This document shows positions 19,608 through 63,495 of a DNA stretch of 64,000 bases, one piece after another. A program made the translations under genes and the position numbers. The notes under the pieces were generated by a model, which ran no database searches, was not told the DNA's origin, and saw only the letters and a list, made by a program, of their open reading frames with translations. The first letter of the stretch is position 1, and every line of letters starts with the position of its first letter. Origin of the DNA: Chrysaora quinquecirrha (lineage: Eukaryota; Cnidaria; Scyphozoa; Semaeostomeae; Pelagiidae); NCBI GenBank assembly GCA_014526335.1, contig JACTAT010000282.1, positions 248,001 through 312,000 on the forward strand. The letters are read 5' to 3'.

Positions 19608-19620
19608 TATTTGAAATCAG

Positions 19621-19870: not shown

Positions 19871-19885
19871 TACTTTTACCCAGCT

Positions 19886-28805: not shown

Positions 28806-30540
28806 TAATATCATAAGCAAATCTAAATAAATGAGTCTTTAAAGAAGATTTAAAATTATCAATATTGTCAATAGCTTCAATTTCGATTGGAAGACTGTTC
28901 CAAAGACTAGCCGCGGCTTGGGGAACAAGTTCTAGCACTCAATATTTTGTTCTTGAAACGAGGAATCTTTAACAGCAGCGCATTACTCGATCTAAGATTT
29001 CTACCAGGCTTATACTTCTCCACCATATCCCCTAAATACACAGGTGCCTTTCCTATCAAACGTTTGAAAGTAAGCAGCACAATTTTAAACCAGATGCGTT
29101 GCTTGACTGGCAGCCAGTGCAGATCAATTAAGGCTGTGTGCATATGATCAAATTTGGGTATCAGCAACACAACATGAGCAGCTGCATTTTGGACACGCCG
29201 CAGTCTGTCAATAAGATGCTGTGGCATACCGTACAACAGAGAGTTACAGTAGTCCAAGTGGCTAGTAATAAATGTGTGGACAACAGTTTGAATTGCCTGG
29301 TTGCTGAGAAACTTTCGTATACGTTTTAACTTGTACAATTGGTAAAATGCTATACTGCATAGTTTTGTAATGTGTTTATCCACATTCAATTTTTTTTCCA
29401 AATAAACACCAAGGTTTTTAACTGTGCTAACAGAAGCAATAGATTCATCAGCTATTTGTATACCTTCAACAGAGACTTTAGACAGTTGCTGTCTGCTTCC
29501 CACTAACATTACCTCGGTCTTTGAATCATTGATCATGAGATGGATAGCCAACATCCATTTCCTAACATGAGAAACACCCGTCTCCATGGCCTTGATAGAC
29601 TCTCTCTCAGAAACAGGCTCTGGTTTGAACGATATATATAGCTGGTGATCGTCCGCATAGCCATGCACATTTGGAAGGTGTTGACTAATGAAATCACATA
29701 AAGAGCTGATGTAGATACCAAACAATACAGGTCCTAGATAGCTTCCCTGAGGGACACCACAGTTCACCTGCACCTCCTCTGAAATAGTATTTTTCACAAT
29801 AACCCCTTGTTTTCTTCCATCTATGTATGACCTAAACCAATTAAGGACTGTGCCATTAATTCCGAAATCATGCTCCATTTTTTTTAAAAGCATTTCACGA
29901 TTCACAGTATCAAATGCAGCGCTAAGATCTAGCATCACAAGTAATGTCACATGCTGATTATCCATAGCTGCAAACATATCTGACTAAACCTTTATCAAAG
30001 TTGTGTCTGTACTATGAAATCTTCTATATGCAGAAGCCTTTTTTGACTCACTGTGGTAATTCAACCAGTCTACAACTGCTTTTTCGGTTAGCTTTGAAAC
30101 ATATGATAAGTTGTTAACAGGCCTGAAATTCTTGAAGAGTAAATCAAGTCCAGGCTTCTTCAACAAGGGCCTTATTAATGCACATTCTCAGGCATCTGGA
30201 AAAATACCACTGGCAAATGAAACATTTATCATGTTTGTAATCACAGGGATAAGAACATCTATGCATTTCTTGACTAGCCATGTCGTAGCTGGATCGAGGT
30301 GACAATGTTTACATGCTGATTTGATGATAAAGTTTCTTACATCTTCCTCTGAAAGAACATCAAATTCACTGAAGGAAACATAAGATTAATTTTGCAGTGT
30401 CATTCCATTTGCTTGTATAACCTCACTCTCATATCAGCAATATTTTCCTGTATTTTTTCAACCTTTTTGATGAAAAAGGTACCAAAGTCATTTGCTAGCA
30501 AGTTGAATTGCCTGAGCTGGTTTTCACTCCAGGTAATGTC
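28806..30540 (-). pseudogene. LINE ORF2 reverse transcriptase, 5'-truncated
   Basis: The minus-strand frame 29977-28907 gives 356 residues: L-D-L-S-A-A-F-D-T-V-N (motif A), G-V-P-Q-G-S-Y-L-G-P-V-L-F (motif B), Y-A-D-D-H-Q-L-Y (motif C) and the C-terminal thumb with L-H-W-L-P-V-K-Q-R-I. Upstream, after a stop near 29983, 30166-29984 carries N-F-R-P-V-N-N-L-S-Y-V-S-K-L-T-E-K. The linker before RT continues to about 30540 with several stops. After a frameshift near 28910 the C-terminal tail (S-L-W-N-S-L-P...L-F-R-F-A-Y) ends near 28810. The Y-A-D-D-x-Q-L-Y motif fits CR1/L2/Rex1-type non-LTR elements. The catalytic residues are intact, but the gene is broken and lacks its endonuclease. Confidence 0.82.
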
Positions 30541-30542
30541 TG

Positions 30543-31455
30543 TGCAGTACAGTGGATGCTGTGCAGTACAGTGGAGGTTGTTCAGTACAGTGGGGGATAA
30601 CATTGAGTACAGTGGAGGCCGTTCAGTACAGTGGAGGGATAACATTGAGTACAGTGGAGGTTGTGCAGTACAGTGGAGGGATAACATCAGTACAGTGGAG
30701 GGATAACATGATGCATGTTGGGGATAACATCAGTACCGTGAGGCTGTTCAGTACTGTGGAGGGATAACATCAGTACAGTGGAGGGATAACATGATGCGTG
30801 TGGGGGGATAACATTGAGTACAGTGGAGGCTGTTCAGTACAGCGGAGGGATAACATCAGTACAGTGGAGGCTGTTCAGTACAGCGGAGGGATAACATTAG
30901 TACAGTGGAGGCTGTCCAGTACAGCGGAGGGATAACATTAGTACAGTGGAGGCTGTTCAGTACTGTGGAGGGATAACATCAGTACAGTTGTGGGATAACA
31001 TGATGCATGTGGGGGGATAACATCAGTACAGTGGAGGCTGTTCAGTACAGTGGAGGCTGTTCAGTACAGTGGAGGGATAACATCAGTACAGTGGAGGGAT
31101 AACATGATGCGTGTGGGGGGATAACATTGAGTACAGTGGAGGCTGTTCAGTACAGCGGAGGGATAACATCAGTACAGTGGAGGCTGTTCAGTACAGCGGA
31201 GGGATAACATTAGTACAGTGGAGGCTGTTCAGTGCTGTGGAGGGATAACATCAGTACAGTTGAGGGATAACATGATGCATGTGGGGGGATAACATCAGTA
31301 CAGTGGAGGGATAACATGATGTGTGTGGGGGATAGCATTGAGTACAGTCGGGGCCGTTCAGCACAGTGGAGGGATAACATCAGTACAGTGGAGGCTGTTC
31401 AGTTCTGTGGAGGGGTAGCAAGTACAGTGGAGGCTGTTCAGTACAGTGGGGGGGG
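30543..31455. repeat. GTACAGTGGAGG / GGGATAACATCA minisatellite
   Basis: About 910 bp built from two words, CAGTACAGTGGAGG(CTGTT) and GGATAACAT(CA/TGA), in changing order. A higher-order unit with GATGCATGTGGGGGGATAACAT recurs around 30700, 30790, 31000, 31105 and 31275. It starts exactly where recognisable LINE coding sequence ends. Confidence 0.92.
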
Positions 31456-38114: not shown

Positions 38115-38607
38115 TAAATTATTGAGACGGAAAATGAAGTTAGTGATTTACATAATGCCTCTATTTATTTAAAAACTATTTGAGAATATACCAACACATT
38201 AACAATAAGTATAATAAAAGAAGCGCAATCCTTTATCATATACGAAAACTATGGTGAATTTGCGCAAAAACAGCGAATAACATGTTTCAATGAAGAATAC
38301 TTTGAATATTGTAAACCTGAAGATATTGAAAAAGAACTAGCTAAACTCTTGGATGATAGAAATATTCAACCTCACAAATTTCTGCAAAAATTTTTACAAA
38401 TACATCCTTTTCCTGATGGTAATGGTAGACTGGTGAAACTCTTCTATTGGTTCCTGACTAACAAATGCATAATATGGGAAGATCAAAAAAAGTATATTAA
38501 GGCTTTAAGAAAATCTACTAAGAATTTACAAGAATACCTAATCCAATTAGAATTCAATCATAGATTTTCGTCTCAAATCTCTTATAAATATAATGCATGC
38601 ACCTAGT
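38115..38607 (+). pseudogene. Fic-domain protein, Polinton copy B
   Basis: Similarity to copy A begins at I-I-E-T-E-N-E-V-S-D-L. One TGA near 38172 replaces a codon that is Arg in copy A. The following 145 codons are open: S-F-I-I-Y-E-N-Y-G-E-F, a helical block, L-Q-I-H-P-F-P-D-G-N-G-R-L-V-K-L-F (38400-38445), then W-F-L-T-N-K and a Lys-rich C-terminal helix. The Fic motif is complete except for its last Arg. The gene follows RING on the same strand and precedes two basic-protein genes. Known Fic proteins AMPylate host or self targets; the target here is unknown. No inhibitory-helix motif (S/T-x-x-x-E/D-G-N) was seen. Confidence 0.62.
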
Positions 38608-40472: not shown

Positions 40473-40988
40473 ATAAATGATAAAATTGTTACTTGGAATC
40501 AACTCTGCAAATAATTTGTTGTTTGTATCTTATACTTTGAGTAATCCAATCACCAAGAAAAAAAGTGTTGTATATTCAGTAAAAATCTTGGAAATAGAAG
40601 TTTATTTATCTAGTACGATTTTCAAGGTCTCTTATGAAGATGGCGAGAAGTGCGCTTTCATTATTTACAATTGGCAATACTGTAGGCTAAAGGCCTTGCC
40701 TTTATGAACAATGAAATTAAGTTATCATTCATACCTCATTTTCAAACACAATATTGGTTTGTTTCGTTGTAAAAATCGAAAAGCCATCAGACAAAACTTG
40801 AACTTCCATTGAAAAATTACATATTTCAAAGGCTAATAAAACTCAGTAAGCTGAGATGCCTGCTTGATGGGTACAGACAGCAGAGACAACAACGGAATAG
40901 AGAGGAAAGGAAAGACAAGAAGTACTCAATTCACTCAATACGAGTCAACCATACTAGGATCCAGTCTCCCCCTATTCAAACGCTTACG

Positions 40989-43900
40989 TTATTGCTTGGA
41001 GAGGGGGTTGTTTGGCATGAATGTCTGTGGTTTTTTGGACATTTCTAGCGCAGCTTTACTGCTCTTATTACGCCAACATGCTTCTAGGAAATCGTAAGAC
41101 CGGAATTCCATGTGCCCCTCAAAGAAATTGTCTTCTCCTTCTTTATTCGTCAGACGTGTTTTAACTTAGGTGAGAAAGACAGCAACATAAGTAACCACAC
41201 AGAAAACTAAGTTTCAAAATATATCGCCAGAACAAAACAAGTTACAATCTGTTAGTTGCATAGTTTCTATTTAAGTACAAATACAAAGAGCAAATATGAA
41301 ATGGATTTATTGTCTATGAAAGAGTAACACGTTTCTCTAAAAATTAAACTTCTCCAAATATTTATACAGCGATAAGAGCAAGATGATAGGAAAATTACAG
41401 GTAAGAAACACAATCAACAGCAGTAAGATCAAGAAATTGTAACGAACAAGAAAAATCACAATGTAGAAAGAAACGAACCATCCAAAGTGCTTGCTTTATC
41501 TCTCTTATCTGCAAGATGTTAACTAATGTTCATTAAAGAAAGATAACTAATAAGTGATGCTACAACAACTAATAAGTGAATTCAAACTATAACTAATAAG
41601 TTATAGCAATGCAGTAAGAAAACGAACCTTGTAAAGTGCTTAATTTAGTTGTCTTATCTGCAATATGAAACAGTTCATTGAAGTAATTAAGATGAAGAAA
41701 TTGTAATGAACAAGTAGATTTGCAATGCAGTAAGAAACGAACCTTGCAAAGAACTTGATTTCGATGTCTTATCTGCAATATGAAACGGTTCATTAAAGTA
41801 AGATAAGATGAAGCAATTATGATGAACAAGGAGAATCGGAATGCAATAAGAAACGAACCTTGCAAAGTGCTCGATTTCCATGCCTTATCTGCAATATGAA
41901 ACGTATCATTTTAAATTAAGGTAAGATGAAGAAATAATCATGAACAAGGAGAATCGCAATACAGTAAGAGATGAACCTTGCAAAGAACATGATTTTGATG
42001 CCTTATCTGCAATATGAGACCGTTCATTACAGTAAGATAAGATGAAGAAATTATGATGAACAAAGAGAATCGCAATGCAGTAAGAAACGAATATTCAGAA
42101 GAGCCTGATTTTGATGCCTTATCTGCAATATGAGATGGTTCATTAAAGTAAGATAAGATGAAGAAATTATAATGAGCAAGTAGAATTGCAATGCAGTAAG
42201 AAACGAACCTTGCAAAGAACATGATTTCGATGCCTTATCTGCAATATGAGACCGTTTATTACAGTAAGATAAGATGAAGAAACTATGATGATGAAAGAGA
42301 ATCGCAATGCAGTAAGAAACGAACCTTGCAAAAAGTGCTTGATTTTGATGCCTTATCTGCAATATGAAACGGTTCATTAAGGAAAGATCAGATGAAGAAA
42401 TTATGATGAACAAGTAGAATCGCAATGCAGTAAGAAACGAATATTCAAAAGAGCTTGATTTACGTTTCTTATCTGCAATATGAAACGTTTCATTAAAGTA
42501 ACATGAGATGAAGAAAGTATGATGAACAAGGAGAATCACAATGCAGTAAGAAACGAACCTGGCAAAGAATTTGATTTCAATGTCTTATCTGCAATATGAA
42601 ATAGTTTATTAAAGTAACATAAGATGAAGAAATTATGACGAACAAGGAGATTAGCAATACAGTAAGAAACGAACCTTCAATAGAGCTTAATTTTGATGTC
42701 TTATCTGCAATATGAAATTGTTTATTAAAGTAACATAAGATGAAGAAATGTTGATTAACTTAGACGATAGAAATGCTGTAAGAAAATGAGCTTTCTTGAA
42801 GAACAGTTGTTCCGTGCAAATCATCTGCAATATGACAAATGGAGGTAATAGTGCTCAGTAGGGCATAAGAAATATGGGTCTAGAAAATTACTTAAACGAT
42901 TGCCATAGCAGAAACGGAGTCGGAGACTAACCTTGCTCAACATTTGTTTCCATAATATCATCTGCAATATGAAAAGAAGAAGGAATAGTGCTCAATAGGG
43001 CATATGAAATATCAGTCTAGAGTATCACTTATTAAACCATTGCCATTGCAGAAATTGAGTTGGAAACTAACCTTGCTCAACATTTGTTTCCATTATATCA
43101 TCTGCAATATGAAAAAAAGAAGTAATAGTGCTCAATAGGGCATAAGAAATATCAGTCTAGAGTATCACTTATTAAACCATTGCCATTGCAGAAATTGAGT
43201 TGGAAACTAACCTTGCTCAACATTTGTTTCCAAAATATCATCTGCAATATGAAAAAGGAAGTAATAGTGCTCAATAGTGCATAAGAAATATCAGTCAAGA
43301 AAATTACTTAAACGATTGCCATTGCAGAAATTGAGTTGCAAACTAACCTTGCTCAACATTTGTTTCCATAATATCATCTGCAATACGAAAAAAGGAAGTA
43401 ATATTGCTCAATAGGGCATACAAAATATGAATGTAGAAAATTAGTTAATCATTGATCGCAATTGCAGAAACTGAGTTGGAAACTAACCTTGCTCAACATT
43501 TCTCTCCATAATATCATCTAAAATATGATAAGAAGTAATAATAGTCAGTGTTATTAGCAAGTAAAAATTGATTGCCATTGCAAAATGACGTAAGAAATGA
43601 AGTACCTAATTAGTTACTCGTAATAACTATTATACTCACTTGTTTCAGAGGACATGATCTGGAATGAATCTAGAATGACCAACAGTCCTTGAATTACTCT
43701 TACGATATGATACTGAAGAGGCTAAGTGAAAACTGTATTCAAATCTTTGTTCTTTAGAGAAATGTAGTCTTGAATCAATTAAGACATAGGCAAATAATGG
43801 CACACTGTTATGCTTAGAGGCTGAAAAGAAGAATAATAATGAATAAATGTAGCAAGGCTTCAATTAATAACTTGATATATTTCCCTTACTTGGTGCACAT

Positions 43901-45814
43901 TCACCCTCTTCAATATTTCTTTCATAGTTAGCTGAAAGGCAAGAGAATAAATAACAAACAAAAAAAGGTATGCGGGACAGCCTCATGAGACAGTTTAAAT
44001 CAGTAAACACCAACCTTGAAGTACCCTTTTGAAGAGCTGTAACGTTACAGCTCCTTCATCTGCAATACCACTCCCATTCTCAAAGAATAACTGAGCAGCA
44101 CCTTCAGTGGCAAAGTGACGGACAGTGTATCCTCTATCATGCTTCTTTCCATAAATAATTATGACTTCGTTTTTGTGCTTCTTATGTAGTCCGTTAGCCT
44201 AAACAGATAATTAGAACTATACTTTATAAAATCACAGTATAACTAGCAAATTATACAAACGAAAGCTTGCTGCCCATTATCAAGAGGAGAAAAATGAATA
44301 ATGGGGACCTTTCAGAATCGCAGATCAGACCATGCTGCGTGTCTTAGTTGACTGCAGTGAATTACCAAGGAATAATGTAAGAGTTTGACTGACGAATCCC
44401 GTTTATTGTTTACGATTTCGAAATCACCCATTTTTGATCATCATTTTTCAAATTTCAAAAAGGAAATGGTCTTTATCTGAAAATATTAAACCAAAGGTTG
44501 TAACAGCCATCTGCATTCTGCCTCTTTAAAGATGATTTCTTTCCTTTAAATTTCAGGAGAAGAAGAGATAATTCACAGCTTTCTTACAAAAAACATTTCT
44601 GTTTTCTGACCTGCACTCATATCTAAAGATGCCAAAGGAGACCTAAAGTACGCGTACTGATTTATATTCAAGACTTTGCTCAACATATGTCTTAAGTAAT
44701 TTGAATGAAATAACGGAAAGTAAGGGCTGTTGATGAATAAAATGTTTTAAACATTTATTTTTAAGTTTATGCTTACCCTGCTATGAATCATCAAGCGCTG
44801 ATCATGCTCGCTGGTTTTCTCTTGGGGCCTTTGAGGTTAAGCTTTTCCTTTTGTGGAAAAACTAAACCACAAAAACAGATCTTTTTTGAAGGGAAAACTT
44901 TTCTGTTACACTGACTGCATGTCTGAAAGAAGAAATTATCCTCAAAAGCATACAAATGAGAGCCAAAGAAAATAGCAAGTTAAAATTTCTATCCTATCCC
45001 ACAATACAAAAATAATAATAAAACGGTACTTTGGGCCCTCAGTAACTTATCCAACTTTACTGTACACATTGTTTAGTGTGAGAGAGCCCAGAATGGGTTT
45101 AATGAAAACTATAGCATACTCTGCTTTTGGTGAAAAATACACCCATAGAAAACAAGGAGGGTTTCAATGTAAAAAGGGCAAAAGAATACTGTAGCCTTGG
45201 GTAAATTATGTGGTTTCACATCACACTCTCCCATTTCCTGGGCCTAAGGTGGTACCCAATTGCTTGGGATTTTGCTGGAGCAGTGAGCACTTCCTGGACC
45301 GATGCCCTTCCTGATGTCCAGCAATGGCTTGTCCAGGGCTTGAACCTGGGACCTCGTATGTGAGAGCCAAAGCACGGGTAGTCCAAGGAGCCACAGGTAG
45401 AAAACACAACATGCTGGTTAAGATCACAAAGATGTTGAATTGGAATTTGATTCCCACCATCATTTCTAAACTAGGAGAGAATTATATAGAGGAATCACAG
45501 AGGTTTAACAGAGAGTTAACAAAACTGTCTCTATCATTTGGCAAATCCAGCACCAAAGGTTTGAAACAATGTGATACAGGATTTTATACAGGAGATCCAT
45601 TTGACAGAGAGAAAAAGAAAAAATATAACCTGTAATTTATTTACACAAAGGAATTTTCAAGCTATTCTTAACTTAATCATTAGATACATTATAGACTGAA
45701 GGCAAAATAATATGTTTTGGTAACGAGAAACATAAAAACAAACTCACTCACTTTCATGATAACTTTTTTCGCTTGCTTGTAAGCAATAAAAACTGTCTTT
45801 TCAAGTGATTTCAA
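40989..45814 (-). CDS. Micro-exon gene with about 18 tandem 30-nt exons
   Basis: Minus-strand exons, 5' to 3': 45814-45752 (63 nt), 44922-44777 (146 nt), 44198-44015 (184 nt), 43931-43890 (42 nt), 43820-43704 (117 nt), 43669-43640 (30 nt), 17 micro-exons from 43517 to 41479, then 41164-40989 ending in TAA. From 44198 on, every junction is phase 1 and all splice sites except those noted in the repeat entry are GT-AG. The 5' part has C-S-Q-C...C-F-C-G, a zinc-ribbon-like motif, then V-I-I-I-Y-G-K-K and a Phe-rich block. The micro-exons give 10-residue repeats such as D-D-I-M-E-T-N-V-E-Q and D-K-T-S-K-S-S-S-L-Q. The last exon encodes about 58 residues. The 146-nt exon needs one more base to keep frame (sequence error or mutation). 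The first exon of the gene was not found. Function unknown. Confidence 0.65.
41479..43517 (-). repeat. Exon-intron tandem array: 116-bp and 140-bp units
   Basis: Each unit, read on the minus strand, has acceptor CATATTGCAG, a 30-nt exon, then donor GTTCGT (family 1) or GTTAGT (family 2). Family 1 exons start (plus coordinate) at 41479, 41628, 41743, 41859, 41977, 42093, 42209, 42325, 42443, 42559 and 42675, mostly 116 bp apart. Family 2 exons are at 42932, 43072, 43212, 43348 and 43488, about 140 bp apart. A 33-nt hybrid exon (42792-42824) with a GC donor sits between them. Exceptions: 42325 is 32 nt (longer A run), and 42093 and 42443 have AT in place of the donor GT. Confidence 0.85.
45216..45410 (-). 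repeat. tRNA-derived SINE
   Basis: On the minus strand TGGCTCCTTGGACTACC (A-box-like, about 45378-45394) is followed by CCAGGTTCAAGCCCTGG (45333-45349), which folds as a perfect T-arm (5-bp stem, 7-nt loop) and holds a B box, GGTTCAAGCC. No anticodon or acceptor stem is present, so it is not a tRNA gene. It lies between the 63-nt and 146-nt exons of the micro-exon gene, that is, inside an intron. Confidence 0.55.
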
Positions 45815-47066
45815 CTAAAGATAACAGGATATAACAAAAAGATCAAAGAAGAAATATTAAAAAACTGAACTTCAACAATATGCATAAAAATTTATACATT
45901 CAGGCCTAACCATGGCTTACATTTCCAGTGCAGGTAAATAAAAATATACAGCAGATTGAATATTTCTAAATTGACCATGATAACATCATCTTGTTGAATT
46001 TACTATGTATGATGAGGTTTTTGACACAGATTATGGAAAATTTCTGCACATCTCATATTGCTTATCCCGATAAAGAAAAACTTACATCAACATATGCAAA
46101 TTTTCAACAACTTCACTCAATAGCAAAAAATTGAAAAAAGGAAAGAGTGAACAAAAAGACCATTTCCCAAAGCAATGTGGATCTTTTAAAAGCATTGGAA
46201 TCATATTTTTCAACAAGCCATATTTTGTTATTAGAGGATTTCTAGCTGCTAATAACCACAGCAGTTCCAGAAAAAGTCAATTAATTTGCCACTAAGCCAC
46301 TGATTAGTGATGATTAGTGTTGGTTAGAGACCAAGGACAACTCTGGAGTAGTCAAATAGAGCCAGGGGCCTTATAAGGGTCGTTTTAGAGTCTTCTCCTC
46401 TCCTGCTTCTGTGCAGACCTACTCTAGTAAACTATTACATGTCTACACTACAGGGTCCCAGGCACCTAATCAAGGCAATAGTGTCAGAACAATTGGGCAG
46501 TGGGCCAATGGGGGTAATTGCCTCTCTTTTCAGACACATTAAATTACAGAAAAATTTTTTTCTGCTATTATATGCCCTTGATTTGCTAAGTAGGTAAACC
46601 AGGGCAATTTAGGAAAATATTCTACTTGTTAAATTTTTAACTGATACGCTACCATAAAACCAAGGTAGTTTCAAGCTATACCCCCCTTCCAAAAAGTTTG
46701 GAAACAGTCAATCATATTGTGGCCAACAGTGACCAAGGGCCTAAGTGCAAAATATTTTCATGCAGCGTTGATCCAAGATTTTGCTCAGTTTTGGAAGGAA
46801 AATATTTGTCATTGCATTCTCCATAATTATAAATCAAAAGGACAAACCATTTTTATGTCATGATGATTAAATACAATAAAATTTAGAAGCTAGCCTTCAA
46901 AACCAAGGCAGAGATTTTTAGCTGATTACTGTTTTGATATTTAACAAAGTGAAGGGTTTCTTTTCTCATCAATGGGACACTTTGATGTTATGTGAAGCCC
47001 AGTTGTTAAAGCATGACTTTTTTTATTATAATTATTATTATACAAATTTTTACAGTCAAATACTGA

Positions 47067-47850
47067 TTGATGGTAGAGTCATCTCATCCGCCAAGTAGTG
47101 AACATCACATCTCTTCCACTGTATTGATTTTAAGTGTAATGTCTCTAATAATGCTTCGAAATCCAATAAGCTGTTCGAATCTGTTTTGCATTGTTGTGTA
47201 TCCAGGTACAAGAGGTTCATCTGGGACTAATCCGAGAAATTTATCCAGATTTCGCTTGAACATGTCAATGCTCTGCCCAGCCATATCTCGTAGATTTCTG
47301 GGTAGACAGTTAAACAGTCGTGCTCCCTGCAAAACTAAGCTTGATTCACGTAAATTTTGAATCCTTTGGGTGGCATCACGTTTCAAAGCTGGGATGATGC
47401 AGATGCGCCCATTCCGTAGAGTTAGCACCAGCAACACCAATGTGCGGTACTAGATTTTCAAGCATTTCATAGCGTTCAGGTCGTCTTTGCAAAGAGGATA
47501 TGCTGAATTTTTTCAACCGCTCCCAGTAATCAAGTTCATATGCTCCTGATATTTTCCAGAGAAAGTTTTTTTGTAATAGTTCAAGATTCACAATATCCTG
47601 TTTCTTTGTGGGACTCCATAACTGTGAACAATATTCAAGCTGGGGTAGTACCACAGATTTCCACAGTGTAATCATCAACTGTGGCTCTCGTGACTTAAAA
47701 GTTCTTGATATTGTGGATATTGTTTTCTTTGCTGTATCTACAAAATTTTGATGTGTTCAGTAAAAGATGCATCTGCACTCATTGTCACTCCCAAGTCACG
47801 CACATTTCTAATAAATATTTTGCTAAAATTCAGTTTTCAGAACTTATAGG
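47067..47850 (-). pseudogene. LINE ORF2 C-terminal fragment (unit 1)
   Basis: Minus-strand frames 47678-47376 and 47440-47105 encode the post-RT region of a non-LTR element: S-V-V-L-P-Q-L-E-Y-C-S-Q-L-W-S-P, then R-N-G-R-I-C-I-I-P and F-N-C-L-P-R-N-L-R-D, ending near 47105. A missing T near 47750 (TTTTG versus TTTTTG in unit 2) breaks the N-terminal side and another indel separates the C-terminal frames. RT catalytic motifs are absent. Confidence 0.7.
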
Positions 47851-49711
47851 AAGATTACAGCTATGGAAACATTTTTCAGGTAAACAACAAAGAGTCTTTT
47901 GTCACAAACAGTAATTTTGGAGGTAAGCAAATAAACAAGGGCAAGATAAAAAAATCCAATCACATTTTGTAAAACTAGTTTTAAATGCAGACAAAATTTT
48001 GGATTCCAGTTATTTTATAAGGAAGCAGAGTGACATTTTCAGAAGCACACTCTTCTGACATGTGAAAAATTCACTCACCTGTTAAATGTTCCCAAAACTA
48101 ATTTGTGAAAACTGACACATTTCAAGAAAATTACATTTGAAAGCAAAACTAAAACAACTGTGCTTCAAATTAGAGCAAAACTTCCTATCTTTGAGAAATA
48201 ACCCTACACATCTGGTCCAAATTTCATATCAGTTGTCCTCCTCTTGTCCTAAAAATTTTTCCCTTTGTCTTTGAAAACATGAGGCTCAGTATTTATGTTT
48301 GTTTTCTATCATAACATGAAAATAATCCTAACATTAATATAATGACTCAACATTGACTTTGGAAATGAAAATACTTTGGATTAGGCCCTTGGTCACTATT
48401 GGCCACCATTTTTAAGCTACTACAATTTAATTTACAAACTCTTTAACTTTCTCCAAAATAAATTTGGTAGGAGCCATAATGTAGCGACATACTCTTTGGA
48501 TGTGGGTGCCTATTCGAGGAAATACAGTAATAATAAGACCGTTTCGAGGAGCAGCCTTCACAGACTACGAAGATTTTGCAAAATTTCAAGGTAGAGTTTT
48601 TCATACTTGATTCGAAAGCAGCTGAAATTTAGTCTAGGTGCAAAACTTTACTATCTTAGTGTTTCTTTCATTGGTTTTATGAGCGTTCAAAGTTTGAGAT
48701 TTCATAACTTATAGGGCTCAAACAAGTCAGGATGAGATCAGGCAGAAAGTTTCAACCCAAGTTATTTTTCCAGTCAAATCCTTTATAGAATAGGGAACTT
48801 TAACGGCTCATAAAATGAATATTCACAAGCACTAGGACAATGACACTTTGCACCTAGACAGTTTTTGATGCTTTATATGATCCAGTGTGCATTCCATGTA
48901 GCCTATGCGGAGATCTCCAGCTTGGAGTGTGAAACTTAACTGGCATACTTGCCTGGATCTTTCAGAAAAACAATAATCTAGACTATTACTTCAATTATAA
49001 AACAACAGATGTATTGTTTCTTTCTGTATGAAGTCCGATTTGGTCGGCATATTCTCCTGCATGCATGGCAGTAACACGGAATGCACCCTGATAGGCTATT
49101 GACTTTGAGAAATCAAATAAATGTCAATCCTGGATGCCTCTCATCGAAGAGGTCTAGCCAAGGGTACCCTTTCTCGTAAACAATAGTCTAGCCAACAGTA
49201 CCATTTTGAATATGCCAGAAGAATCCATTACCAAAATTTAGCCAAGACAAGAACAGCCTTGTGCTCTTGTTAATGGTGGAAGCTTGCTCCCTCAAACCAC
49301 GCACTGTGAAGTTAGATTCACTATATACTGTAAGTCCCTCCGCTTCGCCTTGATTGCCCATTCAATCATCGCCAAGATAGGTTTTTTATTGCAAACAAAA
49401 GTTAATATAATGGGATGTTTTCGAGCAACAACAGCAACCACATATCTATATTGACGATTGAAGACAAGATGTTCTTGGTAGAAAAAAAACAAAAATTATT
49501 GTAGGGTACATCATTCATGATATTAATATTATTGGGTCTCCGGTGTCCAGAATACATTGTTCTGAAATGCTGCTCATTAGTTGGGCTGAGCATTATTGTG
49601 TATACTTTCTAACATTTTTGATATAATAATTTTAATCATAGTGCAGAGAATAAAAATTGGGAAAAGTTCTCAAAACCATGGGTAATAAATGCCTTAACTT
49701 TTATTTTTCAG

Positions 49712-51290
49712 GTATCCGTGAACATCGGCGTGCACCAGGACTTGGACTCGAAATGGCTAAGACTATTCAACTCTTTATTTATTGTAATGAACGAAAATAA
49801 GGAGGTAGTCACGTGGCAATTTACAAAAAGAGAGAAGTTTAGTTTTGTATAAGACTTACTGATAAACTTGAAACACAGGCTTCTAAGCTCTTTCCCGAAA
49901 CTTGAATTTTTTGTGATAGACAATTGTTGCAAGTGGGAAAAAAAGATCAAAGAGCTTTTTGGACAGGACGTAAAAGTAAAATTAGATTTGCTTCATGCTC
50001 TCCAAAGGCTTACAACAACTTTGGATAAGTCAAGTCCATATCAGAATAGAATGTGCCATAATTTGAAATTGATATTTCGGCAGGAAGGAGACAGTGGTTC
50101 ATTGCATACAAAGCCAACCCCGTCCGCAGCTGTTTTACAGAAAAGACTTGAAACTGTTATAGACAGCTGGTGTTCCATTGAAACACTGCTAGATGGGAAG
50201 TTTGTGATGAATGATAATTTTAGAAAGGCCATAGAGAATTTGTTCCTTCGTATAAAAAAGGGATGCTTGTCTGACATTCCGCCAGGTTTAGCAAGAGGCA
50301 TGAACGAAAATTTGCTCAAAAATTTAAACAAAGTATTTAAAAGTTTGAAAATGGGACCTGAACTTGCTATTAACCTTCTAACAGTCTTCTTCTATATTTT
50401 GAACTGCAAGCGAATTTGTAGCGATGGAAGGTGTCTGTTAGAAGCATTTTTTCCTTGTATTTGAATCTCATAAATCACCAAAATCTAAAGAAAAATTTGG
50501 AATTGGTAATTCGAAAGAACAAGCTGCTACAGCCAAGCCTTTTGCTCTAAGAAATCAACTTCTCCATGAATCTGCAAACTCTAGGCAAATTCTTTTCAGA
50601 AAATTATTTCTATTCAACAAGCTAAATGGTATGTCCTGGCTGGAGAAAATTCCACATGAAATGTTTTTTGCAGAAAAGGTTGTAGTGAAACTATTACAGA
50701 TGAGAAATATTTTTAGAAGTGAATCCGCAGTGGAGCAAATTGAAACTTTAAAATTGGGCTGCAAAAATTTTGGCTTCATTCCAATTTCAAGCCTTGCTCT
50801 TGCACAAGAGGATGAAAACAAAGTACTAACTGTTTCTATTATCACAATCACAAATTTCATTCAACAAAAAGAAGCATTTCCAGGAGTTACTGCACACTTG
50901 AAAGCTTTTGTTTTCTCAGGGAATCTGAACAAGGACTGTACGATCTTGAAAGAACTTATAAAAAAAGAAATCAAAACGGAGCACAATCTTTGTTGCAACA
51001 ACAAACTTTCTGACAAGGAACACATGCAAAGATATTCCATTCTAAAATCAAACGATAATTATATAATGAAACCCGAGTTTGCTGACCTCATAATACAAAT
51101 TATTTCTAATGTCATTTGCCCCGCAATTGTTCTATTCACCTCGATTCCCAACAAACCCATTCTGCCAATTATACCAGAAAAGGAAATGTGCACAACCTAT
51201 TGTCTGTTTATGGCCACCAATTTCGCAGCTTTTTTCCCAGCTTTGTTGGTACGGGAAGCTTCGAAATTTTGATGAAAAATTTTTTGTTTT
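49712..51290 (+). pseudogene. DDE-transposase-like protein (unit 1)
   Basis: An exon-like start at 49712 (acceptor TTTTTCAG) gives L-R-L-F-N-S-L-F-I-V-M-N-E and V-V-T-W-Q-F, then an in-frame TAA at 49850-49852. The frame resumes with F-F-V-I-D-N-C-C-K-W (a likely catalytic Asp block), V-K-L-D-L-L-H-A-L-Q-R and G-C-L-S-D-I-P-P-G. The conserved N-E-x-L-H reads N-E-N-L-L here. A frameshift in the T-run near 50448 leads to a second frame (about 50461-51272), a helical C-terminal part with C-T-T-Y-C-L-F. I recall this block order from cnidarian and sponge repetitive proteins; the transposase superfamily is not assigned. Non-functional. Confidence 0.55.
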
Positions 51291-52335
51291 AGTTCCAAGA
51301 CAAAGCCATTCTGTTCCTGCCCGTGCCACTCTTGAAAACAAAGGATACTTAGCTTGATAGTCTCTAGTAGATTTTTTCTTTGTGTCCTCAACACATTCTA
51401 TATTTAATTTAGAAGTATTTGTATGTTTTTTAAAATATGTAGTTAATGTAGTTAACTAGCCTTGCAACTTTTGTGTTGAAATGAAATTATGTCTATCTAT
51501 CATTACTTAAGAGCATAGCAAAACACAAGATCGCTTCTGCATCAAAACCTGTTCAAAGGCATGTCAGGAGACTTCTTCAAATGGAATCAGAGTACAAGAA
51601 AACGCATTTTCACTGCATGAAATTAAAATTCTTTGTTGCAAAATAGAAAGAACATTGAAAAATGTTGAAAGTTTCTATAGTCGTAAAAAAACAAGTAATA
51701 ATGTTAGTTAAATTCATTTGTTAGATTATTAAGTAACTGATATACCACAATGTTTTACCGATAAACCACCATTGGCAAGGCCAAATTTAGGCCTGTCAAC
51801 TTAAGCACATAATGAAAAGTAAGTAAGCAATCAAATAGTGATTAACAAAAAGAAGCTTGCTGTGACAACCACCAATGATCTGAGAGCAAATAGAATGAGA
51901 GTTCCTTGACTCGATTTGTCAGTCTCTGAGAAATTACTACAACAGCAAATGAAAAACCCTGAAGATAAATTCAAGCAAGGAAAATGGAAGGCTGCAAAGA
52001 ATAAGAACTTAATTGGCTGTACTAAATCATGTCAGCATTATTGTTGAACATTCTGTCCTCAAACAATCATGCTTTGTCGGTGTTCCATAGTGCTATAGGC
52101 AAGTTGAGTTATTTTCAAGTTAAACAGCTAAATCACTTGTTATTTAGATTTGTATTCTAAACATTGAATCAGAAAGGATGCAAATCATGTCATAATTATT
52201 TTTGAACATTCTTTTCTCTAACAATCATGCCTTGTTGGTGTTCCAAGGTGATATAACCAAGTTGAGTTACTTTTCAGTTAAAAAGCTAAATTACTTGTTA
52301 TTTAGATTTGTATTCTAAACAGAGAATCAGAAACG

Positions 52336-52584
52336 ATGCAAGAGAAAACAAGTGAATTAAAAATTGTAAGAGAAAAGAAGTTGAATGCAACTGACACAGT
52401 TGCCGTAAAAAGATTCAGAAAGCAGGTCCCACTGAATTCCACCATGGATATTGCAAGACCACCATCAAGTGATGGTGAGGAAGAAAGCTTGAGGAACAGA
52501 AAAAAAGATGGCTGCCTTTTGGTTTGGATCAAGAAAACGAAGAGGAAATCTGTATGCCTCCATAAGATAGGAAATCAACAATAA
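52336..52584 (+). CDS. Small charged ORF (unit 1), frameshifted relative to unit 2
   Basis: Lys/Glu-rich, 82 codons, starting M-Q-E-K-T-S-E-L-K-I-V-R. Compared with unit 2 one A is missing near 52489, so the C-terminal half is read in another frame. The opposite strand is also open (52716-52465), and I cannot say which, if either, is used. No family recognised. Confidence 0.25.
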   Translation: MQEKTSELKIVREKKLNATDTVAVKRFRKQVPLNSTMDIARPPSSDGEEESLRNRKKDGCLLVWIKKTKRKSVCLHKIGNQQ

Positions 52585-53814
52585 TTTGACAATGTCTCGA
52601 AGTTTGGATGATGATTCAAGTGAACATGTATCAGGGTAAGAATGCAGAGCCTGGCTAACTGTTCCAAGATATGGAACTTGGCCTTGCGATACAATGTGAA
52701 CTTTGTTACTTGACATGGTAGAGTATGAATTCTAAATAGAATCTATACTGCACTTTGCATGTAAAAAGATTGCTTTTAAAACTGAATATTGAGGAATTAC
52801 ATGGACACAGGTTTTGAAGGTCATTATGTGTACATTTATTGTCAATGACAATCTGCTTCTCACCCAAAGTGAAAAACATATATAAAAGGAGTAATGATAA
52901 AAAAAAAGAAAGAAGAAGAAGGAAAAAAGATTTTCAGATTCTTCTAGTATCTCCCATCCATTACATAACCCTCCTTAAATAGTATCTATTAGTTCAATGA
53001 TATTGAACTCTGAACATCTATAATTGGAAATTTATCTTTAACCTTGTACATCTGCTTTGCTTGGCAAGTTAAATCGAATCTCTGGCCAAAAAAAGAACAT
53101 CGGGCTCACCTTTTATATTTTGTCTTTCAGATGAAGTTTGCCTAATTGTTTTTCCAATTTTAAAATTTGCTTCTTCCTATTGTATGTCAAACTAAGTAGG
53201 CTAACAGAATGCATTCAATACACAAAAGGTTTATTTGTCTTCACTGGTTGCAACTGTGCTCAAATCTGTATTATTACAGTATTGAGACAAAAAGACAGAC
53301 TACATTCTCTATTGTTATTTCTGTTTTGTTAAGTAGGTTTGTGAAGTCAGCTTTGCTAATGCAGCAGCGCCTTGCTTATAAGAACAGCTGCTGAGTTTGA
53401 TGCCTCGATAGAATGACTTGATAAATGAGAGAATAACCACAAAATCATGTGTGTTTGTTGTTTGAGGCCAGGATGGAGCGAATCTGTTTAGATAGCAAGT
53501 GTATTTTGGGATATATTGCTATCACAGAAAACTTGTTGTATTTTACTTCTTTCGGTGTGTTTTTTGCTTATCCCCTTGGTAAGCCAATCACAAAACAGAC
53601 GTTTGCTTTGAGAAATCATTCATTGCGTCTTCAAGACCCTTCACATTCGAGGACACTTCCTCTCTCACGAATCTCAATGTCAAAACAATGTAGCCTGCTT
53701 TGGCAATGGCAGTTGCATCTTTTAAAGTTTTACAGTTAAAAAGACGCCCAAAGAAGCGCATTGCAAAGTGCTGCTTACTTCCTTGTGACTCATCCCCCCT
53801 CTAACTACTGCTGC

Positions 53815-54695
53815 ATAGATCCATACAACAGGGAAGCATGAGACATGATACAAATAGAAAGAAAATCGCTAGTGGCCAGGCATTTAAAACCTCTGTTTTC
53901 AAGAAAGAACAACAAATTGGGCTAATCAACTATTCTGCACTATTCTTATAGATCCATACAAACGGGAAGCATGAAACATGATAAAAAATAGAAAGAAAAT
54001 CGTTGGTAGCTAGCCTTTAAGGACCTCTGTTTACAAGAAATAGCAAAAGATTGCGCTCATGAATTATCTTTTGCTACTCTTATACATTCATTCAACAGGG
54101 AAGAATGACACATGATACAAATAGAAAGAAAATTGCTACAGCATGACACATGTGACAGAGCAAGGAGAAGGCAATAATGGACCCTGTCACCATTGAAGAA
54201 GAAGTCAGCTTGGTTCTCCATAGTTGTGGCAGCTTCCAAAGTAAGTAGGTGCAACACATTGTACTTTGTAAAACATGACCATCTGACTATAGTACATAGG
54301 TATGTGTATAGCATTGACATTTTCACTGAAGAAGAATATGTCAATAGCGTTAGTTTGTTGACAAGCACCAATAGGTGGGAGCCACTTTAAAGGATAAGGC
54401 AAAACACTGACCAGGAGACTACAAGTCTTCACCGGTAAAGAGGTTATGTGTAATGGATCTTTGGATAACTGGAATAGTTGAATGTCTGGAGCAAGTGAAT
54501 GAATAGGCAATGTGACATGTGTAGAGGAGAAGCGGACCCATGAACATGGAAATAGGACAGGCCATGAGCATGGAACTACATAATGAAATGCTACTGCGAT
54601 GATGAACTTGTGCAATATTCTGCGCTACTCTTATCCATACAACAGGGAAGCATGACACATGATACAAATAGAAAGAAAATCGCTAGTACCTGGTC
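53815..54695. repeat. Short dispersed repeat, four copies (unit 1)
   Basis: The phrase CATACAACAGGGAAGCATGA followed by CATGATACAAATAGAAAGAA and AATCGCTAG occurs near 53818, 53948, 54088 and 54636, 55-60 bp each, in direct orientation with small changes. The regions between copies hold no recognised gene. Confidence 0.8.
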
Positions 54696-55667
54696 ATGGC
54701 GTGAGTGTTGTTTCAAATTTATTCTGTTAACAGATAATAACAACTTTTATTTAAGCAGAGTCAAGGTTTGCTCCAGAACATGGACCATTGAGTTTTGAAT
54801 ATACATTATAAGTTTATGTTTATATAATTCTCTCATGTGTAGGTGCTTCTTTGTATGTTGAAAGAATGTACAAGAAAAGTCAATTAATTTGCCACTAAGC
54901 CACTGATTAGTGATGATTAGTGTTGGTTAGAGACCAAGGACAACTCTGGAGTAGTCAAATAGAGCCAGGGGCCTTATAAGGGTCGTTTTAGAGTCTTCTC
55001 CTCTCCTGCTTCTGTGCAGACCTACTCTAGTAAACTATTACATGTCTACACTACAGGGTCCCAGGCACCTAATCAAGGCAATAGTGTCAGAACAATTGGG
55101 CAGTGGGCCAATGGGGGTAATTGCCTCTCTTTTCAGACACATTAAATTACAGAAAAATTTTTTTCTGCTATTATATGCCCTTGATTTGCTAAGTAGGTAA
55201 ACCAGGGCAATTTAGGAAAATATTCTACTTGTTAAATTTTTAACTGATACGCTACCATAAAACCAAGGTAGTTTCAATCTATACCCCCTTCCAAAAGTTT
55301 GGAAACAGTCAATCATATTGTGGCCAACAGTGACCAAGGGCCTAAGTGCAAAATATTTTCATGCAGCGTTGATCCAAGATTTTGCTCAGTTTTGGAAGGA
55401 AAATATTTGTCATTGCATTCTCCATAATTATAAATCAAAAGGACAAACCATTTTTATGTCATGATGATTAAATACAATAAAATTTAGAAGCTAGCCTTCA
55501 AAACCAAGGCAGAGATTTTTAGCTGATTACTGTTTTGATATTTAACAAAGTGAAGGGTTTCTTTTCTCATCAATGGGACACTTTGATGTTATGTGAAGCC
55601 CAGTTGTTAAAGCATGACTTTTTTTATTATAATTATTATTATACAAATTTTTACAGTCAAATACTGA

Positions 55668-56430
55668 TTGATGGTAGAGTCATCTCATCCGCCAAGTAGT
55701 GAACATCACATCTCTTCCACTGTATTGATTTTAAGTGTAATGTCTCTAATAATGCTTCGGAAATCCAATAAGCTGTTCGAATCTGTTTTGCGCATTGTTG
55801 TGTATCCAGGTACAAGAGGTTCATCTGGGACTAATCCGAGAAATTTATCCAGATTTCGCTTGAACATGTCAATGCTCTGCCCAGCCATATCTCGTAGATT
55901 TCTGGGTAGACAGTTAAACAGTCGTGCTCCCTGCAAAACTAAGCTTGATTCACGTAAATTTTGAATCCTTTGGGTGGCATCACGTTTCAAAGCTGGGATG
56001 ATGCAGATGCGCCCATTCCGTAGAGTTAGCACCAGCAACACCAATGTGCGGTACTAGATTTTCAAGCATTTCATAGCGTTCAGGTCGTCTTTGCAAAGAG
56101 GATATGCTGAATTTTTTCAACCGCTCCCAGTAATCAAGTTCATATGCTCCTGATATTTTCCAGAGAAAGTTTTTTTGTAATAGTTCAAGATTCACAATAT
56201 CCTGTTTCTTTGTGGGACTCCATAACTGTGAACAATATTCAAGCTGGGGTAGTACCACAGATTTCCACAGTGTAATCATCAACTGTGGCTCTCGTGACTT
56301 AAAAGTTCTTGATATTGTGGATATTGTTTTCTTTGCTGTATCTACAAAATTTTTGATGTGTTCAGTAAAAGATGCATCTGCACTCATTGTCACTCCCAAG
56401 TCACGCACATTTCTAATAAATATTTTGCTA
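55668..56430 (-). pseudogene. LINE ORF2 C-terminal fragment (unit 2)
   Basis: As in unit 1 but with a longer open frame (56408-55980, 142 codons), which adds R-D-L-G-V-T-M-S-A-D-A-S-F-T-E-H, the usual block after the RT core. The tail frame 56044-55706 follows. Two small indels relative to unit 1 lie in 55755-55800. Confidence 0.7.
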
Positions 56431-58317
56431 AAATTCAGTTTTCAGAACTTATAGGAAGATTACAGCTATGGAAACATTTTTCAGGTAAACAACAAAGAGT
56501 CTTTTGTCACAAACAGTAATTTTGGAGGTAAGCAAATAAACAAGGGCAAGATAAAAAAATCCAATCACATTTTGTAAAACTAGTTTTAAATGCAGACAAA
56601 ATTTTGGATTCCAGTTATTTTATAAGGAAGCAGAGTGACATTTTCAGAAGCACACTCTTCTGACATGTGAAAAATTCACTCACCTGTTAAATGTTCCCAA
56701 AACTAATTTGTGAAAACTGACACATTTCAAGAAAAATTACATTTGAAAGCAAAACTAAAACAACTGTGCTTCAAATTAGAGCAAAACTTCCTATCTTTGA
56801 GAAATAACCCTACACATCTGGTCCAAATTTCATATCAGTTGTCCTCCTCTTGTCCTAAAAATTTTTCCCTTTGTCTTTGAAAACATGAGGCTCAGTATTT
56901 ATGTTTGTTTTCTATCATAACATGAAAATAATCCTAACATTAATATAATGACTCAACATTGACTTTGGAAATGAAAATACTTTGGATTAGGCCCTTGGTC
57001 ACTATTGGCCACCATTTTTAAGCTACTACAATTTAATTTACAAACTCTTTAACTTTCTCCAAAATAAATTTGGTAGGAGCCATAATGTAGCGACATACTC
57101 TTTGGATGTGGGTGCCTATTCGAGGAAATACAGTAATAATAAGACCGTTTCGAGGAGCAGCCTTCACAGACTACGAAGATTTTGCAAAATTTCAAGGTAG
57201 AGTTTTTCATACTTGATTCGAAAGCAGCTGAAATTTAGTCTAGGTGCAAAACTTTACTATCTTAGTGTTTCTTTCATTGGTTTTATGAGCGTTCAAAGTT
57301 TGAGATTTCATAACTTATAGGGCTCAAACAAGTCAGGATGAGATCAGGCAGAAAGTTTCAACCCAAGTTATTTTTCCAGTCAAATCCTTTATAGAATAGG
57401 GAACTTTAACGGCTCATAAAATGAATATTCACAAGCACTAGGACAATGACACTTTGCACCTAGACAGTTTTGATGCTTTATATGATCCAGTGTGCATTCC
57501 ATGTAGCCTATGCGGAGATCTCCAGCTTGGAGTGTGAAACTTAACTGGCATACTTGCCTGGATCTTTCAGAAAAACAATAATCTAGACTATTACTTCAAT
57601 TATAAAACAACAGATGTATTGTTTCTTTCTGTATGAAGTCCGATTTGGTCGGCATATTCTCCTGCATGCATGGCAGTAACACGGAATGCACCCTGATAGG
57701 CTATTGACTTTGAGAAATCAAATAAATGTCAATCCTGGATGCCTCTCATCGAAGAGGTCTAGCCAAGGGTACCCTTTCTCGTAAACAATAGTCTAGCCAA
57801 CAGTACCATTTTGAATATGCCAGAAGAATCCATTACCAAAATTTAGCCAAGACAAGAACAGCCTTGTGCTCTTGTTAATGGTGGAAGCTTGCTCCCTCAA
57901 ACCACGCACTGTGAAGTTAGATTCACTATATACTGTAAGTCCCTCCGCTTCGCCTTGATTGCCCATTCAATCATCGCCAAGATAGGTTTTTTATTGCAAA
58001 CAAAAGTTAATATAATGGGATGTTTTTCGAGCAACAACAGCAACCACATATCTATATTGACGATTGAAGACAAGATGTTCTTGGTAGAAAAAAAACAAAA
58101 ATTATTGTAGGGTACATCATTCATGATATTAATATTATTGGGTCTCCGGTGTCCAGAATACATTGTTCTGAAATGCTGCTCATTAGTTGGGCTGAGCATT
58201 ATTGTGTATACTTTCTAACATTTTTGATATAATAATTTTAATCATAGTGCAGAGAATAAAAATTGGGAAAAGTTCTCAAAACCATGGGTAATAAATGCCT
58301 TAACTTTTATTTTTCAG

Positions 58318-59890
58318 GTATCTGTGAACATCGGCGTGCACCAGGACTTGGACTCGAAATGGCTAAGACTATTCAACTCTTTATTTATTGTAATGAACGA
58401 AAATAAGGAGGTAGTCACGTGGCAATTTACAAAAAGAGAGAAGTTTAGTTTTGTATAAGACTTACTGATAAACTTGAAACACAGGCTTCAAAGCTCTTTC
58501 CCGAAACTGGAATTTTTTGTGATAGACAATTGTTGCAAGTGGGAAAAAAAGATCAAAGAGCTTGTTGGACAGGACGTAAAAGTAAAATTAGATTTAATTC
58601 ATGCTCTCCAAAGGCTTACAACAACTTTGGATAAGTCAAGTCCATATCAGAATAGAATGTGCCATAATTTAAAATCGATATTTCGGCAGGAAGGAGACAG
58701 TGGTCCATTGCATACAAAGCCAACCCCGTCCGCAGCTGTTTTACAGAAAAGACTTGAAACTGTTATAGACAGCTGGTGTTCCATTGAAACACTGCTAGAT
58801 GGGAAGTTTGTGATGAATGATAATTTTAGAAAGGCCATAGAGAATCTGTTCCTTCGTATAAAAAAGGGATGCTTGTCTGACATTCCGCCAGGTTTTGCAA
58901 CAGGCATGAACGAAAATTTGCACAAAAATTTAAACAAAGTATTTAAAGGTTTGAAAATGGGACCTGAACTTGCTATTAACCTTCTAACAGTCTTCTTCTA
59001 TATTTTGAACTGCAAGCGAATTTGTAGCGATGGAAGTTGTCTGTTAGAAGCATTTTTCCCTTGTATTTGAATATCATAACTCACCAAAATCTAAAGAAAA
59101 ATTTGGAATTGGTAATTCGAAAGAACAAGCTGCTACAGCCAAGCCTTTTGCTCTAAGAAATCAACTTCTCCATGAATCTGCAAACTCTAGGCAAATTCTT
59201 TTCAGAAAATTATTTCTATTCAACAAGCTAACTGGTATGTCCTGGCTGGAGAAAATTCCACATGAAATGTTTTTTGCAGAAAAGGTTGTAGTGAAACAAT
59301 TACAGATGAGAAATATTTTTGGAAGTGAATCCGCAGTGGAGCAAATTGAAACTTTAAAAATTGGGCTGCAAAAATTTTGGCTTCATTCCAATTTCAAGTC
59401 TTGCTCTTGCACAAGAGGATGAAAACAAAGTACTAACTGTTTCTATTATCACAATCACAAATTTCATTCAACAAAAAGAAGCCTTTCCAGGAGTTACTGC
59501 ACACTTGAAAGCTTTTGTTTTCTCAGGGAATCTGAACAAAGACTGTACGATCTTGAAAGAACTTATAAAAAAAGAAATCGAAACGGAGCACAATCTTTGT
59601 TGCAACATCGAACTTTCTGACAAGGAACACATGCACAGATATTCCATTCTAAAATCAAATGATAATTATATAATGAAACCCGAGTTTGCTGACCTCATAA
59701 TACAAATTATTTCTAATGTCATTTGCCCCCCAATTGTTCTATTCACATTGATTCCCAACAAACCCATTCTGCCAATTATACCAGAAAAGGAAATGTGCAC
59801 AACCTATTGTCTGTTTATGGCCATCAATTTTGCAGCTTTTTTCCCAGCTTTGTTGGTACGGGAAGCTTCGAAATTTTGATGTAAAATTTT
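58318..59890 (+). pseudogene. DDE-transposase-like protein (unit 2)
   Basis: Counterpart of 49712-51290. The same in-frame TAA is present (58456-58458), so that break predates the duplication. This copy keeps N-E-N-L-H-K-N-L, with the His that unit 1 has lost. The C-terminal frame is broken near 59358 by one extra A. Fifteen substitutions separate the 597-nt first frames, ten of them changing the residue, which fits absence of purifying selection. Confidence 0.55.
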
Positions 59891-60951
59891 AAAACAAGAA
59901 TTGTTTTAGTTCCAAGACAAAGCCATCCTGTTCCTGCCCGTGCCACTCTTGAAAACAAAGGATACTTAGCTTGATAGTCTCTAGTAGATTTTTTCTTTGT
60001 GTCCTCAACACATTCTATATTTAATTTAGTAGTATTTGTATGTTTTTGAAAATATGTAGTTAATGTAGTTAACTAGCCTTGCAACTTTTGTGTTGAAATG
60101 AATTTATGTCTATCTATCATTACTTAATAGCATAGCAAAACACAAGATCGCTTCTGCACCAAAACCTGTTCAAAGGCATGTCAGGAGACTTCTTCAAATG
60201 GAATCAGAGTACAAGAAAACGCATTTTCACTGCATGAAATTAAAATTCTTTGTTGCAAAATAGAAAGAACATTGAAAAATGTTGAAAGTTTCTATAGTCG
60301 TTAAAAAACAAGTAATAATGTTAGTTAAATTCATTTGTTAGATTATTAAGTAACTGATATACCACAATGTTTTACCGATAAACCACCATTGGCAAGGCCA
60401 AATTTAGGCCTGTCAACTTAAGCACATAATAAAAAGTAAGTAAGCAATCAAATAGTGATTAACAAAAGGAGGCTTGCTGTGACAACCACCAATGATCTGA
60501 GAGCAAATAGAATGAGAGTTCCTTGACTCGATTTGTCAGTCCCTGAGAAATTACTACAACAGCAAATGAAAAACCCTGAAGATAAATTCAAGCAAGGAAA
60601 ATGGAAGGCTGCAAAGAATAAGAACTTAATTGGCTGTACGAAATCATGTCAGCATTATTGTTGAACATTCTGTCCTCAAACAATCATGCTTTGTCGGTGT
60701 TCCATAGTGCTATAGGAAGTTGAGTTATTTTCAAGTTAAACAGCTAAATCACTTGTTATTTAGATTTGTATTCTAAACATTGAATCAGAAAGGATGCAAA
60801 TCATGTCATAATTATTTTTGAACATTCTTTTCTCTAACAATCATGCCTTGTTGATGCTCCAAGGTGATATAACCAAGTTGAGTTACTTTTCAGTTAAAAA
60901 GCTAAATTACTTGTTATTTAGATTTGTATTCTAAACAGAGAATCAGAAACG

Positions 60952-61182
60952 ATGCAAAAGAAAACAAGTGAATTAAAAATTGTAAGAGAAAAGAAGTTGA
61001 ATGCAACTGACACAGTTGCCGTAAAAAGATTCAGAAAGCAGGTCCCACTGAATTCCACCATGGATATTGCAAGACCACCATCAAGTGATGGCAAGGAAGA
61101 AAAGCTTGAGGAACAGAAAAAAAGATGGCTGCCGTTTGGTTTGGATCAAGAAAACGAAGAGGAAATCTGTATGCCTCCATAA
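60952..61182 (+). CDS. Small charged ORF (unit 2)
   Basis: 76 codons, Lys/Glu-rich, ending W-L-P-F-G-L-D-Q-E-N-E-E-E-I-C-M-P-P before TAA at 61180-61182. It is more coherent than the unit 1 version and might be the ancestral frame. No family recognised; the antisense strand is also open. Confidence 0.3.
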   Translation: MQKKTSELKIVREKKLNATDTVAVKRFRKQVPLNSTMDIARPPSSDGKEEKLEEQKKRWLPFGLDQENEEEICMPP

Positions 61183-63310: not shown

Positions 63311-63495
63311 CATGGCGTGAGTGTTGTTTCAAATTTATTCTGTTAACAGATAATAACAACTTTTATTTAAGCAGAGTCAAGGTTTGCTCCAGAACATGGA
63401 CCATTGAGTTTTGAATATACATTATAAGTTTATGTTTATATAATTCTCTCATGTGTAGGTGCTTCTTTGTATGTTGAAAGAATGTACAAGAAAAG

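Follow-up and report, generated by a model that had tools for sequence, protein, structure and literature searches.

Introduction

The closest described systems are the micro-exon genes (MEGs) of schistosomes and tapeworms, in which runs of short symmetric exons permit skipping in frame (PMC4350168, PMC10526429, PMC7653826). The excerpts cited here delimit this class in several ways. A length rule asks for at least seven exons, at least half of them micro (shorter than 70 nt and a multiple of three), with a run of at least four (PMC7653826), while in a second account short symmetric exons of 6-36 bp make up about 80% of the coding region (PMC5825161). A signal peptide is given as a constant feature of the encoded proteins (PMC4350168, PMC10526429), and according to the text cited the genes are apparently confined to flatworms (PMC4350168). 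Their short exons are described as difficult for gene finders (PMC7653826), and genes of this kind may therefore escape notice.

Three further systems share part of this organization. Schistosome VAL-6, a member of the known VAL family, consists partly of very small symmetrical exons and is thought to be composite (PMC4350168, as excerpted). The title of Davis et al. 1988, cited in PMC10526429, speaks of 81-base exons of Schistosoma mansoni that are tandemly repeated in developmentally regulated transcripts. In the brown algal ROCO genes, as far as the cited text describes them, each exon encodes one leucine-rich repeat (LRR), the exons are equal in length and phase, and the array is alternatively spliced (PMC11378527).

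Here we analyze a minus-strand tandem array of micro-exon-like units in a window of 64,000 nucleotides, the whole stretch of Chrysaora quinquecirrha DNA under study. Judged from the sequence, the array probably belongs to a protein-coding gene in which one exon-plus-intron unit was tandemly duplicated and whose exons are spliced individually; we give this reading a probability of roughly 55%.

Anatomy and evolution of the array

The array runs from 43517 to 41479 and comprises 17 units (TRF periods 140 and 116) that fall into two related families, A (n = 6) and B (n = 11), listed with the remaining features of the model in Table 1. The initial annotation had described about 18 micro-exons; the array is present, but it holds 17 units of two families with different peptides, 13 of them usable, in addition to one doubtful exon. 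Nor does every unit have the acceptor, 30-nt exon and donor ascribed to it. The acceptor AG is found in all 17, the exon is 30 nt long in 16 (the odd one, 42356-42325, measures 32 nt) and a GT donor follows in 14, the units ending at 42795, 42443 and 42093 reading AA, AT and AT instead. The three units lacking GT, together with the GT-bearing exon of 32 nt, leave 13 of the 17 usable in frame. Phase 1, the proposed reading frame, is free of stops in every unit, while phase 0 meets stops in four of the 17 exons and phase 2 in all of them.

Table 1 Features of the predicted gene, in order of transcription. Codon scores are rough, as their base is 2251 codons from the long open reading frames (ORFs) of the window, many of them of mobile elements.
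Feature	Positions	Strand	Codon score (bits)	Remarks
Tentative first coding exon, 63 nt	45752..45814	-		open frame; acceptor and donor by eye; without homologue
Zinc-ribbon-like exon TCSQCNRKVFPSKKICFCG	44777..44922	-	-3.0	one stop
184-nt exon	44015..44198	-	+5.4	phase 0 in, 1 out; one of three frames open
42-nt exon	43890..43931	-	+2.5	phase 1-1; GT/AG sites; two of three frames open
117-nt exon	43704..43820	-	-4.0	phase 1-1; one of three frames open
Doubtful 30-nt exon (HSFQIMSSET)	43640..43669	-		34 nt past the 117-nt exon
Family A, six units	42795..43517	-		starts spaced 136-140 nt; consensus peptide DDIMETNVEQ
Family A exon starts	43517, 43377, 43241, 43101, 42961, 42824	-		42824 unit without GT donor
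Family B, eleven units	41479..42704	-		starts spaced 115-118 nt, 149 before the last; consensus peptide DKASKSSSLQ
Family B exon starts 1-6	42704, 42588, 42472, 42356, 42238, 42122	-		42472 and 42122 without GT; 42356 of 32 nt
Family B exon starts 7-11	42006, 41888, 41772, 41657, 41508	-		
176-nt terminal exon	40989..41164	-	+5.2	phase 1 in, TAA end; one of three frames open
AATAAA, possible polyadenylation signal	40601..40606	-		hexamer commonplace in A+T-rich DNA

The introns within the array are 106-110 nt long in family A, 90 nt after the last A unit, 85-88 nt in family B and 119 nt before the last exon. The intact A donors match the consensus at eight of nine positions, and all five GT-bearing A units read CAAG/GTTAG; the B donors, mostly AAG/GTTCGT, match at six or seven. 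The usable exons are all symmetric, with 30 nt and phase 1-1, so that the frame would survive the skipping of any combination of them. The predicted anatomy supports the earlier proposal that repeats may be skipped singly in frame, with 13 of the 17 units usable. The weaker donors of family B would make its units the likelier to vary. An unspliced ORF at 42054-42584 (177 codons) was considered as the main product and rejected: it runs through the introns, and its frame drifts between copies because the length of most B units is not a multiple of three.

Inner units resemble one another most closely, with 82-96% identity in family A and 79-91% in the B core, and the last two B units are only 58-75% identical to that core. 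The border unit at 42824 is overall closest to family B (62-69%), yet its acceptor and exon start are A-like. Greater similarity among inner than among edge units is what unequal exchange would give.

Comparison of exon and intron columns shows no clear selection on the array exons. In the strict test, confined to units with clearly homologous introns (four of six A and nine of eleven B), family A varies at 4 (or 2) of its 30 exon columns and at 23 of its 106 intron columns (p = 0.44 or 0.07); for family B, where the exons are the more variable, the corresponding counts are 18 of 30 and 32 of 85 (p = 0.053). A looser rate test returned p = 0.001 for five A units (slower exons), 0.027 for six, 0.045 for eleven B units and 0.030 for ten. 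We prefer the strict test, since the looser one took in doubtfully homologous sequence upstream of the first unit.

Flanking exons and the gene model

Both junctions that had been proposed at the ends of the array, 43640 to 43517 and 41479 to 41164, are GT/AG boundaries in the sequence. The flanking exons had been taken to be in phase 1 throughout; those of 42, 117 and 176 nt can be entered in this phase, but for the 184-nt exon the entry phase is 0 and only the exit phase is 1. Further upstream, the tentative first exon has an ATG (45757-45755) shortly before the donor GTGAGTG. The zinc-ribbon-like exon that follows has an in-frame TGA (44793-44791) upstream of its own donor. Its joined peptide does not qualify as a UPF0547 zinc ribbon, as the match to PF10571 (12.3 bits, E 0.19) stays below the curated cut-off of 29 bits; that to PF03563 (19.1 bits) also stays below its cut-off of 25.

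The eighteenth 30-nt exon of the initial annotation (43669-43640) is doubtful, as it requires an intron of 34 nt, and animal introns are usually longer than that. If the 117-nt exon is instead read unspliced through this gap, a TGA is reached at 43647-43645; splicing of the 117-nt exon directly to 43517 bypasses that stop. The intron after the doubtful exon has a short stretch in common with the A introns, a score matched by 5 of 300 shuffles in one of ten comparisons. The 34-nt intron, the TGA met on its retention and the stop ahead of the zinc-ribbon-like donor make the 5' part uncertain; an exon may be wrongly assigned, the assembly may be in error, or the gene may have decayed.

The likeliest rival is that the gene ends upstream or is decaying: the protein would stop at the TGA at 43647-43645, and the array would be what is left of exons that were once spliced, lying today within an intron or downstream of the gene. 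The short gap and the stop on read-through fit this account, as do the four defective units, the stop in the zinc-ribbon-like exon and the lack of significant exon constraint. We nevertheless consider it unlikely, because sites, length and frame are intact in 13 of the 17 units, including the first five A donors, an open 176-nt exon in matching phase lies downstream of the array, and direct splicing of the 117-nt exon to 43517 escapes the stop. Several observations count against our own model: 4 of 17 units are defective, the 117-nt exon scores -4.0 bits and reaches a TGA if read unspliced, the zinc-ribbon-like exon carries a stop ahead of its donor, the strict test shows no clear exon constraint, the searches described below found no homologue, and another array of the window scores as well as family B.

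Chance expectation

Shuffles that keep the dinucleotide content were searched for AG..GT exons of 9-60 nt whose length is divisible by three, whose phase 1 is open and whose splice-site scores at least equal the unit's own. None of 3000 shuffles of one A unit contained such an equally good in-frame micro-exon, against about 46 of 3000 (1.5%) for one B unit; the reverse strands of these two units gave no comparable exon. Taken singly, each of five A units gave 0 of 1000, whereas seven of the eight usable B units gave 16, 11, 8, 116, 10, 17 and 43 per 1000 (0.8-11.6%). With the thresholds fixed at 12 for the acceptor and 7 for the donor, 15 AG..GT candidates occur in the array, of which nine pass, all of 30 nt; the density in the remaining window is 0.26 per kb on the plus strand and 0.23 on the minus strand. 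Plus-strand exons were also considered within the array, and none was found at the thresholds applied.

Five other tandem arrays of the window were compared at loose thresholds. The window's array at 30540-31453, a complex array of CAGTACAGTGGAGG-type units with periods of 19-41 nt and multiples, is without micro-exon-like matches, and four of the five have no passing match. The fifth, 22506-23495 on the minus strand, has four (27, 27, 27 and 33 nt), and four of its units gave 2, 9, 64 and 4 per 1000 shuffles. This array has periods of 114 and 132 and at least seven copies of a 27-nt AG..GT stretch, open in phase 1, that encodes a peptide like xKHLLSRVK; by eye, its unit also contains an inverted repeat. 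It could be a second micro-exon array or else serve as a control that shows what chance produces. Since it scores equally well, the splice sites of family B alone are little proof. Family A lies well outside the shuffle expectation, and among the arrays of the window open flanking exons were fitted only for that at 43517-41479.

Another rival is that the array is a non-coding minisatellite with splice-like sites arising by chance. In its favor, the units at 22506-23495 test as well as those of family B, and neither family shows clear exon constraint. Against this stand the five A units with 0 of 1000 shuffles each, the open flanking exons in phase, and the introns, which differ between the families (106-110 nt in A, mostly 85-88 nt in B) while the exons are 30 nt in 16 of 17 units; on balance such an origin seems improbable. 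We regard it as very improbable that the array acts mainly at the RNA level, with retained introns adding stops and lowering expression and the peptide mattering little, since the in-frame TAG that CAAG/GTTAG places directly after the exon on retention in five A units has no counterpart in most B units, which meet no immediate stop, and exon skipping creates none.

Database and literature searches

The search of the joined spliced product that had been suggested found no homologue among about 5.8 billion proteins, and neither did that of the 184-nt exon. No homologues were found in viral contigs or prokaryote contigs, and the acceptor core gave single matches only in viral contigs. Against Pfam the joined product reached no family above cut-off; in a scan of 20 ORFs and peptides of the window, the sole matches to do so were a Fic domain and a reverse transcriptase. 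One match among solved structures (E 0.51) was taken as chance, and the Rfam and tRNA scans of the window returned no match. Single-sequence structure prediction was uninformative for the peptides of the 184-nt exon (mean pLDDT 49.4) and the 176-nt exon (mean pLDDT 68.1), each with pTM 0.24.

The protein collection does include animal sequence, as 3973 of its entries are related to the window's reverse transcriptase at E <= 1e-30; among the best 120 of these 3973, the only one named by organism is from a sea anemone (48% identity). To our knowledge, most entries of the collection are without splice-aware gene models, so the absence of homologues is weak evidence. In the literature, as represented by titles and abstract openings, no such gene was found. 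Our best reading is of a lineage-specific animal gene whose protein would carry a row of acidic and then a row of basic 10-residue repeats.

Comparison with described systems

The proposed likeness to schistosome micro-exon genes extends to their logic and to the length rule, but not to the share of coding sequence. From the 184-nt to the 176-nt exon, the doubtful one included, the predicted model has 18 exons, 15 of them micro and 14 in one run, which agrees with the rule as excerpted from PMC7653826. Micro-exons make up 462 of the 939 nt of predicted coding length (49%, the 42-nt exon counted), below the share of about 80% stated in the cited part of PMC5825161. MEG products are secreted or membrane-anchored; no signal peptide was identified here, where the putative start, at a tentative N-terminus, precedes the zinc-ribbon-like stretch. 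The introns within the array measure 85-119 nt, compared with about 0.1 to 5 kb in the MEGs of PMC10526429 as excerpted, and its exons, unlike those of MEGs, are close copies of a single unit. By analogy, the gene would work like a micro-exon gene; with a coding share of 49% rather than about 80%, and with no signal peptide identified at the tentative N-terminus, it is not classed as one.

The other systems differ in their own ways. The exons of Davis et al. 1988 have 81 bases against 30 here, a comparison that goes by the title, and VAL-6 has a family, whereas the product predicted here has none in Pfam. The brown algal exons are of 72 bp and phase 2, encode folded leucine-rich repeats and are not from an animal (PMC11378527, in the part cited); they are an independent analogue in which each exon carries one repeat and the array is spliced.

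Discussion

Under the preferred reading of a spliced gene, the pre-mRNA would be processed exon by exon into a protein with an N-terminal part, up to five acidic A repeats, up to eight basic, serine-rich B repeats and a tail of 58 residues. The predicted A block has 20 acidic residues and one basic residue in 50, the B block 17 basic and 11 acidic residues in 80. Over evolutionary time the number of repeats may shift through unequal exchange between units. The role is the weakest step of this proposal: the repeats may form a flexible spacer, and splicing and copy number would set its length, its charge and how many modification sites it has. The motif [ST]xx[DE], which we take to be the casein kinase 2 pattern, occurs in 12 of the 13 predicted repeats; as the pattern is common and the repeats are copies of one another, these sites are a lead only.

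A further suggestion, which we offer tentatively and regard as possible though doubtful, is that the array serves as a dial set by splicing, in a gene that does not belong to the known secreted micro-exon families, with the acidic and basic blocks set separately. Each 30-nt unit included would then lengthen the protein by ten residues and bring with it a charge-biased repeat and a potential phosphorylation site. Under this view, the window could hold another, independent example in the 27-nt array at 22.5-23.5 kb.

If the gene is spliced as predicted, the logic of micro-exon arrays is not limited to secreted proteins of flatworms and can come from plain tandem duplication of one exon-intron unit. 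Two sub-arrays would allow repeat number and charge to vary independently, and near-identical competing splice sites in a row would offer a natural test of how the spliceosome chooses exons.

Genomic neighborhood

Immediately upstream of the gene begins an 8.6-kb tandem duplication (46272-54879 and 54875-63495, 98.9% identical); the sequence may have been duplicated recently, or the assembly may have placed two haplotypes one after the other. On the plus strand, 38184-38606 is a Fic-domain ORF (PF02661, 41.4 bits, cut-off 24), and this stretch recurs inverted at 19271-20368 with about 80% identity, giving it the look of a mobile element. The reverse transcriptase ORF at 28910-29983 on the minus strand (PF00078, 75 bits) is read as of the non-LTR type; in the protein collection, one relative is 79% identical to it and another, partial one is 98% identical.
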